Assembly: GCA_016189835.1 (NCBI GenBank)
Contig: JACPRU010000063.1
Span: 1 to 64,000, forward strand
DNA length: 64,000 bases
Reading direction: 5' to 3'
DNA from: Deltaproteobacteria bacterium
Lineage (GTDB): Bacteria > Desulfobacterota > Binatia > JACPRU01
The notes beneath the pieces are model-generated. The model was not told where the DNA came from. It searched no databases and saw only the letters and a list, made by a program, of their open reading frames with translations. The number at the start of each line of letters is the position of its first letter. Position 1 is the first letter of the stretch. Shown here piece by piece: positions 25,501 through 33,180 of the stretch. Both the position numbers and the translations under genes were made by a program.

Positions 25501-26469
25501 TCAGAACAGCGTGCCGATCAGCGTGCCGAGCACCGAGATCGGCGCCTGGTCCTCGATTCCCTGGGCGGCGCGGCTCACCCCGCGCAGCGCGCCTTCGGCC
25601 TGGTCGTAGAGCGCATCGTCGGCGACCAGGCGGCCGAGCGTGCCCTCGCCGCGCTTCACCCGATCGGAGAGCTCGGCGAAGTTCTGTGCGGTGACGTTCA
25701 ACCCGGCCACCGTCTCGCGCAGCTCGGCGTACATGCCGTCGTCGATCAACAGCTTGCCGAGCGTGCCCTCGCCGCCCGCGAGGCGGCCGGTCACCTTGCG
25801 GATGTCGCCGAACGATTCGCGCAGCGCGCTCAGAGTCGCCGTCGCCTCGTCGTAGAGCGTGGAATCGGCGAGCAGCTTGCCGAGCGTGCCCTGGCCGCTG
25901 TTCAGCTTGTCGGTGATGCCGCTCAGATTCTTCACCGTCTGCTGGAATCCCTGGCGGTTCTCGTCGAGCATCTCGCTCACCGTCTTCAGCAGGCGGTCCT
26001 GGTTCTCGTTCAGGGAGTCGGCCAGGCCGCGCAGGCTCCGCCCGACCTGGTCGAGCTCGTCGACCATCTGCGAGATGCCCGCCGCCGACTCGCCGCGGAT
26101 GGTCGCTTCGGGCGCCACCCGCGGGCGCGACGGCGATCCGCGATCGATGGCGACGAAGCGCGCGGCCGACAGCGCCTGGAAGTCGAGCCGGGCGACCGCG
26201 TCGTCGTGAAGCTCGACGCCGCGGCGGAGCTGCAAGGCGACGCGCACCTTGTCGGCCTCGAGGCGGACCTCGCGCACGCTGCCGGCCTTGACGCCAGCGA
26301 CGCGCACCTGGGCGCCGACGCTCAGCCCCTGGACGTCGCCGAACTCCGCCCACACGCGGTAGCCGCGGGCCAATAGCCCGCTGCCGACCGTCGTCTCGAT
26401 GAAGCCGACGAACAGCAGAATGCCCCCGAGGAAGAACAGACCGACCCGCTGCTCTCTGGAAAACGCCAT
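25501..26469 (-). CDS. mlaD: MCE-domain protein, MlaD-like
   Basis: Lipid-binding protein of 322 residues. A signal-anchor helix (VGLFFLGGILLFVGFIETTV) is near residue 10 and the MCE domain follows at about 36-115 (YRVWAEFGDVQGLSVGAQVR). The rest is helical and carries three spaced repeats of GTLGKLLADSTLYDEA type (also GTLGKLLIDDGMYAEL and GTLGRLVADDALYDQA), which probably form the tail of the hexameric tunnel. It is the substrate-binding part of the MlaEF ABC system encoded just upstream on the same strand, 18 bases away. Confidence 0.9.
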   Translation of the reverse strand: MAFSREQRVGLFFLGGILLFVGFIETTVGSGLLARGYRVWAEFGDVQGLSVGAQVRVAGVKAGSVREVRLEADKVRVALQLRRGVELHDDAVARLDFQALSAARFVAIDRGSPSRPRVAPEATIRGESAAGISQMVDELDQVGRSLRGLADSLNENQDRLLKTVSEMLDENRQGFQQTVKNLSGITDKLNSGQGTLGKLLADSTLYDEATATLSALRESFGDIRKVTGRLAGGEGTLGKLLIDDGMYAELRETVAGLNVTAQNFAELSDRVKRGEGTLGRLVADDALYDQAEGALRGVSRAAQGIEDQAPISVLGTLIGTLF

Positions 26470-26487: not shown

Positions 26488-27252
26488 TCACACCACCCGC
26501 GCCGCGCGCAGGAAGTTGCGCGTATGCGGATGCTCGCTGTGGAAGAAGTCGTCGCCGGTGCGGTAGTCGACGATCTCGCCGTGACGGAGCACCGCGACGT
26601 GGTCGGCGATCTCGCGGGCGAGCGGCAGGTTGTGGGTGACCACGACCTGGGTGGGGCGGCGGCGGTCCTGGATCCTGCGAATCAGCGCGCCCACTTCCTC
26701 GGTGAGCAGCGGATCGAGCTCGGCGGTCGGCTCGTCGTAGAGGATGAGGTCGGAGCGCACCGCGAGAGCGCGGGCGATCGCCACCCGCTTGCGCATGCCG
26801 CCGGACAGCTCGGCGGGCATCTTGTCCTCCGTGCCGGCCAGGTCGACTTGCTCGAGGCACTCGCGGACGATGCCGCGAATCTCCTCGCGCGTCGCGCTGC
26901 GGTGCTCGCGCAGCGCGAGGCTCACGTTCTCGGCGACGGTCAACGAGTTGAGCAGCGCCGAGGTCTGGAAGACCATGGACGCGCGAAACGGCTTCTCTTC
27001 CATCGGCAGCCGACGGTATTCCGCGACCGTCGAGTCGTTCAAGCGGATCTCGCCGTGATCCGGGGTCTCCAGGCCGATGATCTGGCGGATCAGCACGGAC
27101 TTGCCCTCGCCGCTGCCGCCGATGATCACCAGCGTCTCGCCCGCCAGGACCTCGAGCCGCACGCCGCGCAGCACGGGCTGGCCGTCGTACGACTTCCACA
27201 CGTCGCGAACGGCGATCGTCACGGGCTTGGCGAGCTGCGGGGGTTCGCTCAT
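26488..27252 (-). CDS. mlaF: ABC ATP-binding protein, MlaF-like
   Basis: ATPase of 254 residues with Walker A (GGSGEGKS, with Glu in place of Gly/Ser at position 5 of the P-loop, as in Mla/Ttg2A proteins), Q-loop MVFQTSALLNSL, signature LSGGMRKRVAIARAL, Walker B LILYDEPTAELDP and H-loop VTHNL. It starts at 27252 and overlaps the MlaE stop by four bases (ATGA). It powers lipid movement by the MlaE permease and MlaD. Confidence 0.92.
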   Translation of the reverse strand: MSEPPQLAKPVTIAVRDVWKSYDGQPVLRGVRLEVLAGETLVIIGGSGEGKSVLIRQIIGLETPDHGEIRLNDSTVAEYRRLPMEEKPFRASMVFQTSALLNSLTVAENVSLALREHRSATREEIRGIVRECLEQVDLAGTEDKMPAELSGGMRKRVAIARALAVRSDLILYDEPTAELDPLLTEEVGALIRRIQDRRRPTQVVVTHNLPLAREIADHVAVLRHGEIVDYRTGDDFFHSEHPHTRNFLRAARVV

Positions 27253-28088
27253 TTCGGGGTGGCCGGGAAGAACAGGAAGGCGACGCGTACGATCACGAAG
27301 TCGGCGATGATGATCGCCACGAAGCTCCACACCACCGCCGACGTGGTCGCCCGGGCCACGCCCTCCGCGCCGCCGCTGGTGCGGAAGCCGAACGTGCAGG
27401 CGACGATCGACACCAGCATGCCGAACACCAGACCCTTCACCAGGCCGACGAGGACGTCGGTCAGATTCAGCCACTCGGTCAGGTTGTCGAGAAACTGCGA
27501 GACGCTGATCGAGATCGTCGGGTCGAGCGCGACCACCAGCGTCCCGCCGAGGATGCCGATCACGTCGGAGTAGAGCACGAGCATCGGCAGCGCGAGCGTC
27601 ATTGCCAGGAAGCGCGGCATCGACAGGAACGGCACCGGATCGATGTCCATCGTGCGCAGCGCCGAGATCTCCTCGTAGACCTTCATCGACCCGATCTCGG
27701 CGGCGACGGCCGATCCCGACTTGCCGGCGACGATGAAGCCCATGATGACCGGGCCGAGCTCCTTGGTCATCGCCAGGCCGACCAGCGAGCCGAGCACCTC
27801 CTGCGTGTAGTTGGCGAGTTGGTCGGCGGCCTGCACGACCATGACCATGCCGACGAACAGCGATACCAGCGCGGCGATACCCAGCGTCTCGGAGCCGACC
27901 AGCAGGAGCTGGGTGACGATCTTCGGCAGATGGCGTCCCGCCGAGCGGCAGTGCCAGACGGTGGCGGCGAGCAACGAGACGCACTCGCCGACGATCTGCA
28001 GGACGTCGAGCGTGCCGCGCCCCAGCGCGGCCACGACGCCGGGCGGGGCCCGGAGGGAGGAGCGAGCGCTGTCGGTGGCTTGGGCCAT
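27249..28088 (-). CDS. mlaE: ABC permease, MlaE-like
   Basis: Inner-membrane permease of 279 residues of the MlaE/YrbE family, about six helices. Family motifs are VGMVMVVQAADQLANYT, LGPVIMGFIVAGKSGSAVAA and EIGSMKVYEEISALRTMDID. The ATG at 28088 is chosen because the preceding 19 codons overlap the upstream gene and are polar. It forms the membrane core with MlaF and MlaD. MlaA, MlaB and MlaC homologues are not in this window, so the outer-membrane partner is open; the upstream 443-residue repeat protein is a candidate (inference). Confidence 0.92.
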   Translation of the reverse strand: MAQATDSARSSLRAPPGVVAALGRGTLDVLQIVGECVSLLAATVWHCRSAGRHLPKIVTQLLLVGSETLGIAALVSLFVGMVMVVQAADQLANYTQEVLGSLVGLAMTKELGPVIMGFIVAGKSGSAVAAEIGSMKVYEEISALRTMDIDPVPFLSMPRFLAMTLALPMLVLYSDVIGILGGTLVVALDPTISISVSQFLDNLTEWLNLTDVLVGLVKGLVFGMLVSIVACTFGFRTSGGAEGVARATTSAVVWSFVAIIIADFVIVRVAFLFFPATPK

Positions 28089-28104
28089 GCCGGCTCCGTC
28101 GGCC

Positions 28105-29436
28105 TCAGTCGAACGAGAGATACCACGGCGGGACGAGCTTGCCATCGCCCCAGGACCACATCCGCCACAGCACGTCGCGGTGCGTGGCGGCGCCGTGATG
28201 CTCGGCTCCGTAGAGCCGGTAGAGCGGCGCCCAGGTTAGGCGCAGCCCCGGGTTCTTCGGGAACAGGCCGTCGAGCAGGGTCGGCGCCTGGGCGTCGCCG
28301 GCCCGCGGGGAGTCGCGATCGATCCACAACGGCACGAGCGCGCGCGTGTGCAGCCGCATGTCGCCCTCGCCCTCGTGCTGGTCGCGGTAGAAGAGGAACA
28401 GCACGTCGGCGCGCCGGTACGCGGCGTCGTCGCCGAGGCCCTCGTGGCGGCGGTAGAACGGCCAGAAGTAGAAGACCGAGTGCATCGTCGCGGTGCGGCG
28501 GTCCTGGTAGAGCGGCGTCAGCCGCAGCGACCGCCGCCGCCCGCTGGAGAGCTCCCGCTCGATCGTCCAGAACGGCCACGGAAAGCCCTCGATCTCCGTG
28601 TCGCTCGCGCGGTCGATGGTGTGGGTGTAGAGCGGCAGCACGAGCAGGAACGCGTACGAGCGGCTCTCGATGCGCGGTCCGTCGAGCGCCGAGAAGAGCG
28701 GCCAGGAGATGCGGGTCGCCACCGCGCCCGCGCGGCCGGGATGGGCGACCGCGCGGACGTACAGCGGCCAGGCGACGTAGGACGACTCGTACTCCGCGCC
28801 GAGCACCGTGTGCCCCCAGATCGGCCACAGGCGCACGCCTTCGCCGGCCGTGCCGCCGACCCGCGAGAAGAACGGGAACGGCAGCCAGGTGCGCCGCCAC
28901 AGCGGCTCCTCGAGGCGCAGGTACAGGGGGAAGAGCAGCATGCGGATCCGCTGGTAGCCGAGCAACCCCTCGACGTCGGCGTAGAACGGCAGCACGGAGA
29001 GCGAGCGCCCGGAGTCCGGCGCGTCGCGGTAGAAGACGAAGGGATAGATCGTCAGCTCGCTGCGGTAGGGACGCTCCGGCGGCGGCGTGCGGCGGCGGAC
29101 GTAGGAGCCGAGGCCGAGGAAGCGGAACGAGAGCTCCTCGCGCGATCGCGTCCAGGAGGCCAGGGGGTAGAGCAGGAAGCCCCGGGAGCTTCCGTCGCCG
29201 GCGGAGCGCGACGAGTAGAACAAGGGCCGCAGCGCCAGGGCCGAACCTTCCGCGTCGCGCTGCCATTCGATCAACGGGCCGAGCAGCCGGCCGTGGGTGG
29301 CGCCGTGGCGCGTCTCGATCTCGAGCAGCGGCCAGGCTCGCAGCTCGAGCGCGCGAGCCGAGCCGGCGCCGAGAACCAGGCCGAGCACGGCGAGCCCGAG
29401 CCCCCGCGCTCGGCGCCTATTCGCTGCGCAACTCAA
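28105..29436 (-). CDS. Secreted aromatic-proline repeat protein, putative outer-membrane barrel
   Basis: Protein of 443 residues, unrecognised. A signal peptide (RRRARGLGLAVLGL, then VLGAGSARALE) is followed by about 17 copies of a motif of the form hydrophobic/aromatic-P-(L/F)-aromatic, for example RPLFYS (70), YPFVFY (131), FPLYLR (169), WPIWGH (204), WPLYVR (223), WPLFSA (245), LPLYTH (267), WPFWTI (287), TPLYQD (307), WPFYRR (325), VPLWID (368) and APLYRL (403). Spacing is 15-25 residues, as in beta-hairpin strands of a barrel. The start is a TTG that overlaps the preceding gene by 20 bases. It is the second gene of the mla operon, 16 bases before mlaE. Function unknown. Confidence 0.75.
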   Translation of the reverse strand: MSCAANRRRARGLGLAVLGLVLGAGSARALELRAWPLLEIETRHGATHGRLLGPLIEWQRDAEGSALALRPLFYSSRSAGDGSSRGFLLYPLASWTRSREELSFRFLGLGSYVRRRTPPPERPYRSELTIYPFVFYRDAPDSGRSLSVLPFYADVEGLLGYQRIRMLLFPLYLRLEEPLWRRTWLPFPFFSRVGGTAGEGVRLWPIWGHTVLGAEYESSYVAWPLYVRAVAHPGRAGAVATRISWPLFSALDGPRIESRSYAFLLVLPLYTHTIDRASDTEIEGFPWPFWTIERELSSGRRRSLRLTPLYQDRRTATMHSVFYFWPFYRRHEGLGDDAAYRRADVLFLFYRDQHEGEGDMRLHTRALVPLWIDRDSPRAGDAQAPTLLDGLFPKNPGLRLTWAPLYRLYGAEHHGAATHRDVLWRMWSWGDGKLVPPWYLSFD

Positions 29437-29824
29437 GCGACTGCAGATCGCGCGCGCGGATCTGGTAGGCGCCGAGCTCGGTGCGGCCCGAGAACGCGAG
29501 CGAGCTGCGGATCTTCAGCTCGACGCGATCGCCCTTGCGGAGCGTCACGGTGGCGACCAGGCTCTTGGCGGGATCGCCGCCGAACTCCACGGTCTTCACG
29601 TCGTCGAAGGAGACGCGCACGTCGCCGCGGCCGAGCTGCCCGGAGAGCGCGAGCTCACCGCCGCAATGGATCCAGCGGGCCTCGACGCGCGTACCGTCAC
29701 GATCGACGAACGTGCCCGCGTAGTTGCGCTCGGGCACGGCGCTGCCGGAGCCGCCGAGTGCTCCCATGCCGACCAGCGGCAGTGCCAGCAATGCGATCGC
29801 GATCGACCGAAGCCTCCGAGCCAT
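29417..29824 (-). CDS. Small secreted protein of unknown function
   Basis: Protein of 135 residues and first gene of the mla operon. The ATG at 29824 has GGGGGA upstream. A signal peptide (RLRSIAIALLALPLVGMGAL) precedes a small beta domain (VDRDGTRVEARWIHCGG, RVSFDDVKTVEFGG, YQIRARDLQSLEL). One Cys is present in the mature part. No family recognised. The stop overlaps the start of the repeat protein by 20 bases, which implies coupled expression. It might be a periplasmic partner of the Mla system (inference). Confidence 0.7.
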   Translation of the reverse strand: MARRLRSIAIALLALPLVGMGALGGSGSAVPERNYAGTFVDRDGTRVEARWIHCGGELALSGQLGRGDVRVSFDDVKTVEFGGDPAKSLVATVTLRKGDRVELKIRSSLAFSGRTELGAYQIRARDLQSLELRSE

Positions 29825-29996
29825 GGGTCCCCCTTCGCCGCCGAACCGCCGTGACGCGCTCCTACCACAGGACCCCAGCGCCGCAAAGCAACGCGTCGGA
29901 GAGCGGGACGGTCGATTTCCCGCCGTCGAGCATGATAGAAGACCCGGGCTGCAGGCGAGGCCGGGCGCACCACCGGCCCCGGCCGCAGGGGGTCTC

Positions 29997-30677
29997 TTGG
30001 GCGGCAAGAACGGCGAGGCCAAGCATCCGTTTCAATTCATGGCGTGCTGGGAGCTGCGCGAGATGCTCGGGCGGCGCGCGGCCGACGTGCCCGAGCTGCT
30101 CGAGGGGCTCGAGGAGGTCCCGCTCGACAGCATCTACTTCCACACCCACAGCTATTTCCTGCGTCATCCGTACATCGCCGGCCCCTATCCCAACGACTTC
30201 GCCAACTGGGCCGCGATCCAGCTCCGCGACCGGGTGCTCGGCGAACGCTTGGCGGTGATCGATCCGTTCGAGGCCGGGGACCTCGAGGCCCTGCGCAACG
30301 AATTGGTGACGATCCTCGACGATCACCTGTCGCACGTCGGGTCGGTCCCGCGGGTGGTGTTCGGCGAGTTCTTCTTCTTCATGCAGTCGCGCATCCTCGC
30401 CGTGCCGGCGGGCATCAAGGTGCGCACGCTCGCGGAGCTGCGCGAGGGGCTCGAGCGCGTCGACGCCAGCGCGATCTACTTCCACGTCTTCGACGCCCTG
30501 GCCCGCAAGGGCCGGCGGCGCAGCGATTTCGCGGTGTGGATCGAGGATGGCCTGGGCCGTAAGGAGCTGGCGGCGAAGTTCAGCGCGGTGAATCCCTACG
30601 CGACCACGCTCGAACGCGTGCGCCGCCGCTTGATCGCGCTCTGCGACGAAGCGGAGCGGGCGGGGAGCGCCTCGTGA
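29997..30677 (+). CDS. DUF5752-family protein with internal duplication
   Basis: About 226 residues from a TTG with AGGGGG just upstream; it is divergent from the mla operon. Two similar halves are visible: FQFMACWELREMLGRR...DSIYFHTHSYFLRH (about 15-110) and FGEFFFFMQSRILAVP...SAIYFHVFDALARK (about 120-215), each with a (D/S)xIYFH core and an LR/VRRRLIxL end. DUF5752 proteins are often encoded beside trehalose synthase TreT or other sugar genes, as here; the stop overlaps treT by four bases (GTGA). Their biochemical role is not known to me. Confidence 0.8.
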   Translation: MGGKNGEAKHPFQFMACWELREMLGRRAADVPELLEGLEEVPLDSIYFHTHSYFLRHPYIAGPYPNDFANWAAIQLRDRVLGERLAVIDPFEAGDLEALRNELVTILDDHLSHVGSVPRVVFGEFFFFMQSRILAVPAGIKVRTLAELREGLERVDASAIYFHVFDALARKGRRRSDFAVWIEDGLGRKELAAKFSAVNPYATTLERVRRRLIALCDEAERAGSAS

Positions 30678-31870
30678 AGGTCTCGCTCGACGACTACCGA
30701 GCCGTCTCGCCGCCGGGGTCGATCGACATCCTGCGGCGCATGGCCGAGAAGCTGCGCTCCCGCAAGGTGCTGCGCATCAGCGCCCACCGCAAGGGGACGG
30801 GCGTGGCGGAGATGCTCGAGCGGCACACGCCGCTCCTCCAGGAGCTCGGCGTCGACGCGCGCTGGGAGGTGATCCAGGGCGGCGAGGGCTTCCAGGCCGC
30901 CTGCCAGGCGCTCTACAACCTGCTCCAGGGCGAGGAGGACCGCTTCACCGAGGAGATGTTCCAGCAGTACGTGCAGACCAACCGCGAGAACGCCCGCGGG
31001 CTCCCCCTCGAGACCGACGTGGTGGTGATTCACGACCACCAGGCGGCGCCGCTCGTCGACGCCCGGCCGCAGGAAGGCCGCTGGGTCTGGCGTTGCCACC
31101 TCGACGTCGCCCGGCCGCAGCGCAAGGCCTGGGCGATGCTGCGGCAGTTCGTGGTCAAGTACGACGCGGCGGTGTTCTCGCTGCCGAAATTCGCGCAGCG
31201 GCTGCCGATCCCGCAGTTCCTGATCTATCCGTCGATCGATCCGCTGTCGGAGAAGAATCGCGAGCTGTCGACCGGCGAGATCCGCTCGACGCTCGACCGG
31301 CTCGGCATCCCCGCCGACAAGCCGATCCTCCTACAGGTCTCCCGCTTCCATCGCTTTAAGGATCCGGTCGGCGTCATCGAGGCCTACCGCATCGCCAAGA
31401 AGCAGAACGACTGCCGCCTCGTGCTCGCCGGCTCGCCGGCGGAGGGCGAGGCGGGTCGGCGCATCCTCGCCGAGATGGAGTTGGCGGCCGGCGGCGATCC
31501 CGACGTCCACATCGTGCAGTTGCCCGAGAGCGCGGAGATCGAGATCAACGCGTTGCAGCGCGCCGCGGCGATCGTCATCCAGAAATCCACCCGCGAAGGC
31601 TTCGGACTGATGGTGGCCGAGGCGATGTGGAAGGGCAAGCCGGTGATCGGCGGGTTCGCCGGCGGCATCACCGCGCAGCTCATCTACGAGGTCACCGGCT
31701 ACACGGTGAACTCGGTGGAGGGGTGCGCCTACCGCATCCGCACGCTGCTCAACAATCCCGACCTGGCGGCGAAGATGGGCGAGGACGCGCGCGAGTTCGC
31801 CCGCCACCACTTCTTGATCACCCGCAACCTCGGGGACTATCTCGCGCTGCTGACCACGCTCCTGCGCTGA
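30674..31870 (+). CDS. treT: Trehalose synthase, TreT-like GT4 glycosyltransferase
   Basis: Glycosyltransferase of 398 residues that would join glucose from a nucleotide sugar to glucose to make trehalose. The N-terminal Rossmann domain has [18 protein letters not shown] and [12 protein letters not shown]; the C-terminal GT-B domain has [40 protein letters not shown] and the donor-binding E...E pair in [10 protein letters not shown]. The GTG start overlaps DUF5752 by four bases. Trehalose points to osmotic or stress tolerance. The family also includes trehalose-cleaving directions, so direction is not certain. Confidence 0.88.
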
Positions 31871-31896: not shown

Positions 31897-32226
<330 letters not shown>

Positions 32227-32291
32227 GCCGCCGAGCACGCGGCGCCGCCTCTCGCTCGCTGCATCTTGCGCCCGCAGCTCATCCGGTCGGG

Positions 32292-32324
32292 GGCGGATGG
32301 AGCCGGTTCGACGGCTCCTCCGCC
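32292..32324 (-). terminator. Hairpin after larE
   Basis: Arms GGCGGA-T-GGAGCCG (32292-32305) and CGGCTCC-TCCGCC (32312-32324) pair with one bulge around a 6-base loop, 29 bases beyond the larE stop and beyond the acs remnant. No T-tract was seen, so termination is inferred from position and stability only. The surrounding 32227-32352 holds no recognisable gene. Confidence 0.45.
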
Positions 32325-32352
32325 CTACGCACGGCGGTGCGCGCCGGTGGCG

Positions 32353-33180
32353 TCAGTACGAAGAGCTCGTGACCCGCAGCGCCTCGTTCAAGCGGCCGCT
32401 GCGAAATCCCCTGGGGTCGACCTCGACCTCCGCGAAGCCGATGGTCCCCAGGGCCGCCGCCAGCTCGCCGCGCAGCGGCTCGGCGTTGAGCCGGGCGATG
32501 TCCGCGGGCGGCACCTCGATCCGCGCGCGCTCGCCGAAGTAGCGAACGCGGCATTCGCGGAAGCCGCGGGCGCGCAGCCACCGCTCGGCGCGGGCGACGC
32601 GCTCGAGGCCTTCGATCGTGATCGCGGTGCCGTAGGGGAAGCGCGAAGAGAGGCACGGGCTCGCCGGCCGATCGAAGGTGCGCAGGCCGAGCCGGCGGCT
32701 GATCTCACGGATCTCGCGCTTGGTGAGCCTCGCCGCGGCGAGCGGGTGACGGATCGCGCGCTCGGCGGCGGCCTGCAGGCCGGGGCGGTAGTCGCCGAGA
32801 TCGTCGAGGTTGATGCCGTCGACGATCCACGGGATCGCGCGCCGCTTCGCCTGCTCGGCGGCGATCTCGTAGAGCGTCGACTTGCAGAAGTAGCAGCGGT
32901 TGGCGGGATTCTCGCGATAGTTCGGGATGTCGAGCTCGTTGTGGCGGACGACCGCGTGATCGAGGCCGAGCTCGCGGGCGAGGGCGATCGCCTCCGCCGT
33001 GTCCTCCTCGGGGTTCGTCGGCGATACCGTGGTGAGCGCGACCACCCGGTCGCCGAGCACGTCGCGTGCGACGCGGACGAGAAAGCTCGAATCGACCCCC
33101 CCGGAGAAGCAGACGAGCACGCGGCCGAGCTCGTCGAGCGAGCGGCGCAGGTCCTCGTGCTTCGCGTCCAGGGCATTCAT
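32353..33180 (-). CDS. larE: LarE-type pyridinium thiocarboxylate synthase (sulfur transferase)
   Basis: PP-loop ATPase of 275 residues, with [15 protein letters not shown] near residue 25. LarE adenylates and sulfurates the pyridinium dicarboxylate precursor of the nickel-pincer cofactor. Three Cys stand out: [11 protein letters not shown] (CxxC, about residue 95) and [12 protein letters not shown] (about residue 175). In single-Cys LarE proteins the last of these gives up its sulfur; members with the three Cys are proposed to bind a 4Fe-4S cluster (family knowledge; type here is inference). No larB, larC or larA is nearby. It shares strand with cysK upstream. Confidence 0.88.

Follow-up and report, generated by a model that had tools for sequence, protein, structure and literature searches.

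What does a secreted protein with regularly spaced Trp-Pro motifs do in an operon for an MCE-type lipid transporter? The question is raised by a locus in the window, that is, in the whole stretch of 64,000 nucleotides analysed here. The preliminary description had proposed that the protein forms an outer-membrane β-barrel and could be a distinct partner in lipid traffic. The gene, its relatives and neighbours, and its predicted fold were analysed.

The repeat gene and its operon

The operon lies on the minus strand, and its genes overlap or nearly touch. The first gene (29417..29824) codes for a small secreted protein of 135 amino acids and overlaps by 20 bases the gene of the WPL-repeat protein (28105..29436), which is followed by the genes of the MlaE permease (27249..28145; PF02405, E 4e-70; the true start is likely to be near 28088), the MlaF ATPase (26488..27252; PF00005 (ABC_tran) and MlaF relatives) and MlaD (25501..26469; 322 amino acids; PF02470, E 2e-17). 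In MlaD the MCE domain (residues 35-111) is followed by approximately 210 residues that are helix-like by composition, with no evident barrel domain. These matches agree with the initial reading of the locus as an operon with MlaD, MlaE and MlaF but no MlaA or MlaC. Compared with the Mla pathway of E. coli (MlaA, MlaC, MlaBDEF), the MlaE, MlaF, MlaD core is shared, but MlaA and MlaC were found neither in the operon nor elsewhere in the source genome, which is itself just 75% complete. Two of the three relatives (family f10) sharing the operon of the window, at 95-96% completeness, were without both MlaA and MlaC.

The small secreted protein belongs to no Pfam family. It is conserved at 10 loci with 37-50% identity and is confined to the class of the window; it may be another part of the system. 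Divergently from the operon, the window encodes on the plus strand a DUF5752 protein and a trehalose-synthase-like glycosyltransferase (29724-31870), followed by acetyl-CoA synthetase-like fragments in different frames (31900-32370), which may be the remains of a gene or reflect an error in the assembly.

The WPL-repeat gene, present in a single copy in the source genome, starts with TTG and codes for 443 amino acids, as supported by its translation, the family profile and a confident AlphaFold2 model. Its N-terminus, RRRARGLGLAVLGLVLGAGSARA, was judged by eye to be a Sec signal peptide (residues 1-29, 29350..29436, minus strand) cleaved after ARA. A hydrophobic N-terminal stretch of the export type was present in 101 of 113 homologues, in agreement with the signal peptide assigned originally. 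Downstream of it, residues 36-404 (28216..29334, minus strand) contain about 20 hairpin repeats with the consensus FxLWP[LF][FY]xY and 17 conserved prolines.

The strict motif [WFYL]P[LFI][YWF] occurs nine times in the window protein, and a relaxed aromatic-Pro motif 11 times, whereas 5000 shuffled sequences contained on average 0.30 (maximum 4) and 0.79 (maximum 5) copies, respectively, ruling out a chance origin. In the core of the protein the motifs are 17-22 residues apart. Thus, the regular aromatic-proline motif reported previously is real and far above chance. The count of about 17 repeats suits the family, in which 17 alignment columns are 75-100% Pro across the 113 homologues (11 of them invariant), better than it suits the window protein taken alone. 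The gene is not a fragment or a product of frameshift, because the homologues are full length and have no internal stops.

Distribution of the family and linkage to MCE genes

With a one-sequence search the WPL-repeat protein was detected in 15 of 148 genomes of the window's class. A profile (A1) detected it in 115 of 395 genomes sampled across the phylum; with a wider profile (A2), applied to one other class, 75 of 146 genomes were positive. Two further records, both distant, were from Planctomycetota. The closer named relatives were Deltaproteobacteria MAGs and one UBP10_UBA1149 genome. GTDB contigs scanned for the exact pattern gave no match.

Single-sequence searches with the window protein gave no Pfam, NCBIfam or PDB match, and a profile search of PDB sequences with the family gave none either. 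When 102 homologues were compared with Pfam, no family was matched except for one chance match; neither of the MlaA and MlaC profiles, PF04333 and PF05494, was hit. In NCBIfam the same homologues gave two glycosyltransferase matches, one homologue each, which were judged to be chance, and weak matches to LA_1737 (NF047486) in 12 cases (best E 4.5e-5). LA_1737 has the same W-P-[LF]-[FY] repeat type, but the matches fell far short of the curated cut-off where it was given (25 against 60 bits), and the window protein did not match. No earlier description was found in the open-licence literature. Taken with the database comparisons, this suggests that the family is undescribed and has no solved structural relative. 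The same repeat type was seen, in 18-22 copies of W-P-[LF]-[FY], in proteins of approximately 700-930 amino acids from a Geobacter-like class (L221, L222, L223, L224), which may point to a wider, undescribed superfamily. Two shortened family members (L023, L024) have only the N-terminal half (approximately 200 residues matched) and lie away from MCE genes.

Neighbourhoods of the repeat gene were searched with MlaE, MlaF and MlaD profiles at 96 loci, one neighbourhood per locus, some of the genomes being close relatives. MlaE or MlaD was encoded within 6 kb on the same strand at 80 of the 96, compared to approximately 1.3% expected for a random gene; MlaD was found within this distance at 78 loci and MlaE at 60. 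Two gene orders were observed. The repeat gene follows MlaE-MlaF-MlaD at 41 loci and precedes them at 17, the latter including all linked Binatia-like loci and both Planctomycetota. Pairwise distances of the repeat protein track those of MlaD (r 0.85) and MlaE (r 0.82), but these values are no higher than expected from shared descent (MlaD-MlaE r 0.81) and indicate co-inheritance only. Linkage was lacking in the greater part of family f44, at two f54 loci and at the loci of f6. These results strongly support that the WPL-repeat protein is linked to MCE lipid traffic as a dedicated partner of MlaEFD. The earlier suggestion of a partner of the MCE system was thereby supported: the gene is kept beside MlaEFD across the phylum and in the two Planctomycetota records, and its homologues are not scattered without connection to MCE genes.

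Several loci had unusual arrangements. At nine f44 loci (L078, L079, L117, L118, L122, L124-L127), in genomes of 1.6-1.8 Mb, the repeat gene lies beside coaD (identified by sequence in L079) and not beside MCE genes; the f44 genomes G174 and G244 have a single-copy MlaE elsewhere and lack MlaA and MlaC. In family f48 a TPR lipoprotein gene (L080:10317-11894) precedes MlaD and the repeat gene, with no MlaE nearby. A second, divergent MlaF-MlaE-MlaD set adjoins the repeat-protein operon in L029, and about 2.2 kb are inserted between mlaE and mlaF in L015 (9621-11848).

MlaE was found in all 69 genomes compared, 41 with and 28 without the repeat protein. Both MlaA and MlaC were absent from 25 of the 41 genomes with the repeat protein and from 1 of the 28 without it (Fisher p 6e-7). 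The corresponding numbers outside the window's class were 21/31 and 1/17, and when counted by family 12/22 and 0/14 (p 0.0007). The repeat protein thus tends to occur where MlaA and MlaC are missing, with phylogeny as a confounder of this contrast since the comparison genomes without it come from few classes. In 16 of the 41 genomes, some of which have several MCE systems, it is accompanied by MlaA or MlaC. MlaE is single-copy in ten of the 41, and in seven of these (G226, G309, G515, G396, G406, G344, G297) the coordinates place this only MlaE inside the repeat-protein operon, with MlaA and MlaC absent.

The predicted fold

AlphaFold2 gave a poor model with 11 sequences (pLDDT 44.9) and a confident one with 113 (alignment A3; pLDDT 93.6, pTM 0.80). 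The latter starts with the signal helix and continues with 42 strands averaging approximately six residues, with three short helices towards the C-terminal end; each WPL sits between two strands. Around the repeat proline, positions -2, +1 and +2 are 90-98% hydrophobic and positions -4 and +4 about half, whereas the opposite turn of each hairpin is charged (113 homologues), indicating that each hairpin is amphipathic. Because single pairwise couplings were too noisy (Neff 70), covariation was summed over the repeats (156 sequences, Neff 94). Antiparallel pairs peaked at the polar turn (4.7 SD) and, less strongly, at the WPL turn (2.0 SD), with minima between them (SD over random centres). Such peaks around both turns suggest that the chain folds back at either end, like the hairpins of MORN arrays, and does not form long membrane strands.

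The fold is thus predicted to be a meander of about 40 six-residue strands, which pair into approximately 20 hairpins; each is about 20 residues long and has a hydrophobic turn at Trp-Pro-Leu, flanked by alternating hydrophobic positions. Foldseek found no global match (TM at most 0.25); MORN-repeat proteins were among the best local matches in its viral library, at low global TM. MORN1, with nine repeats of two six-residue strands each, forms an elongated, twisted sheet of approximately 80 Å with an aromatic-lined groove (PMC7725318). The model of the repeat protein conforms to the definition given there, which is an antiparallel array of hairpins, each 20-23 residues or so in length and built from a pair of six-residue strands. 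Unlike MORN proteins, the repeat protein is exported, its repeat is the Pro-based FxLWPLYxY with no GxG, and it has no MORN Pfam match. By analogy, the hairpins would form an elongated MORN-like ribbon with one greasy, aromatic-lined face. At the rise per repeat of MORN1, about 21 hairpins would extend over roughly 185 Å, close to the width of the periplasm.

Other shapes were also considered. The transmembrane barrel suggested in the preliminary description would have approximately 20 strands of 15 residues, with Pro in mid-strand. Such a barrel would suit the signal peptide, the repeat of about 20 residues, the alternate hydrophobic positions and the aromatic-rich strand, such as LKLFYLPW, in which many homologues end. 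However, in the confident model each of these strands is interrupted at WPL and becomes two strands of six residues, shorter than the nine or more residues or so that a membrane-spanning barrel strand takes. Couplings across the WPL turn, about eight residues apart, are those of a hairpin, whereas a single straight strand would not explain them, and no outer-membrane barrel was among the best 50 of 838 Foldseek matches in the PDB. The structure prediction therefore went against the proposed transmembrane barrel, and we regard it as improbable. It is very improbable that the protein serves the transporter as a periplasmic substrate-binding or regulatory component closed into a propeller-like or toroidal form: the PDB matches listed are partial and mostly propellers, but their TM is only 0.09-0.18, and the widely varying repeat number of the related 700-930-residue proteins suits an open array. 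A β-solenoid was also rejected, since no parallel β-helix was among the Foldseek matches listed and the couplings were antiparallel around both turns.

A possible role between MlaD and the outer membrane

The repeat gene stands beside the pump, often where the lipid shuttle is missing, and its product may therefore be a new bridge for lipids. We see about an even chance that MCE lipid transporters of a distinct type have their envelope partner in this protein, an elongated ribbon bridging lipid traffic between MlaD and the outer membrane. As to its position, its contact with lipid and the direction of transport, all of which we infer, the ribbon would be attached at or near the outer membrane, in some lineages by a lipid anchor, and would extend from there in the direction of the inner membrane and its MlaD assembly. 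Phospholipids could move along its hydrophobic face, or along MlaD docked on it, and the ribbon would take over the tasks of the MlaC shuttle and the MlaA receptor. What stands of the original proposal of a distinct outer-membrane partner is thus the MCE linkage and the frequent absence of MlaA and MlaC, but not the transmembrane barrel form.

An anchor is suggested by a lipobox-like Cys in 26 of the 113 homologues; the residue after it was mostly Ala and never Asp (27 found). In E. coli, lipoproteins without Asp after the Cys go to the outer membrane. By this rule the lipobox-bearing homologues would do the same; the window protein, unlike them, has an ordinary signal peptide. The lipobox would also suit a rigid rod or scaffold that is not a conduit. 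Such a strut would hold or cap the MlaD needle at the outer membrane or the peptidoglycan, and lipids would pass through the interior of MlaD, a route proposed for PqiB with PqiC or for the long Veillonella MlaD. The MlaD of the window is indeed long after its MCE domain, and the grooves of MORN proteins are high-affinity binding sites for protein partners (PMC7725318). A docking strut alone, however, leaves the conserved hydrophobic face along the whole array unexplained, and we consider it somewhat unlikely. A place between MlaD and the outer membrane, with the task of MlaC and MlaA, seems to us the most likely for the repeat protein, and for its role there we prefer a lipid slide to a strut.

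Known systems offer partial parallels to a lipid-carrying ribbon. In Veillonella parvula a ten-strand barrel is fused to MlaD, and this MlaD was proposed to connect the two membranes in a system that has neither MlaA nor MlaC (PMC10665443). The two systems share the absence of MlaA and MlaC, a long MlaD and a proposed trans-envelope bridge. Here, however, the short hairpins are on a separate exported protein, and the helix-like tail of the window MlaD, judged by composition, has no evident barrel domain. According to the same study, most long MlaD proteins are without a barrel, and additional proteins, as yet unidentified, may be required (PMC10665443). In the PVC group, where no MlaD barrel was reported (PMC10665443), we found two separate repeat-protein genes (L036, L037). 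The role proposed here, a hydrophobic β slide across the periplasm, is that of the AsmA-like proteins TamB, YhdP and YdbH, but the repeat protein has a different repeat, no inner-membrane helix and no Pfam match of the AsmA, TamB or DUF3971 type. Caution about lipid contact comes from the crystal structures of eukaryotic MORN arrays, which were accompanied by a re-evaluation questioning lipid binding (PMC7725318).

Most diderm bacteria are without MlaA and MlaC, which raises the question of how their MlaEFD pumps connect with the outer membrane (PMC10665443). For the missing link between the two, the repeat protein is a concrete, widespread and undescribed candidate; its predicted fold is confident, and in seven of the genomes compared its operon holds the only MlaE. 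We tentatively suggest a further architecture of periplasmic lipid traffic, in which a free-standing, outer-membrane-attached ribbon of Trp-Pro hairpins, approximately 185 Å long if its rise per repeat is that of MORN, would carry lipids to or from MlaEFD. If this is true, the ribbon would join the MlaC shuttle, the MlaD/MCE needle and the AsmA/Lpt β slides as an architecture of lipid traffic, one that occurs widely in a single phylum and also in Planctomycetota.
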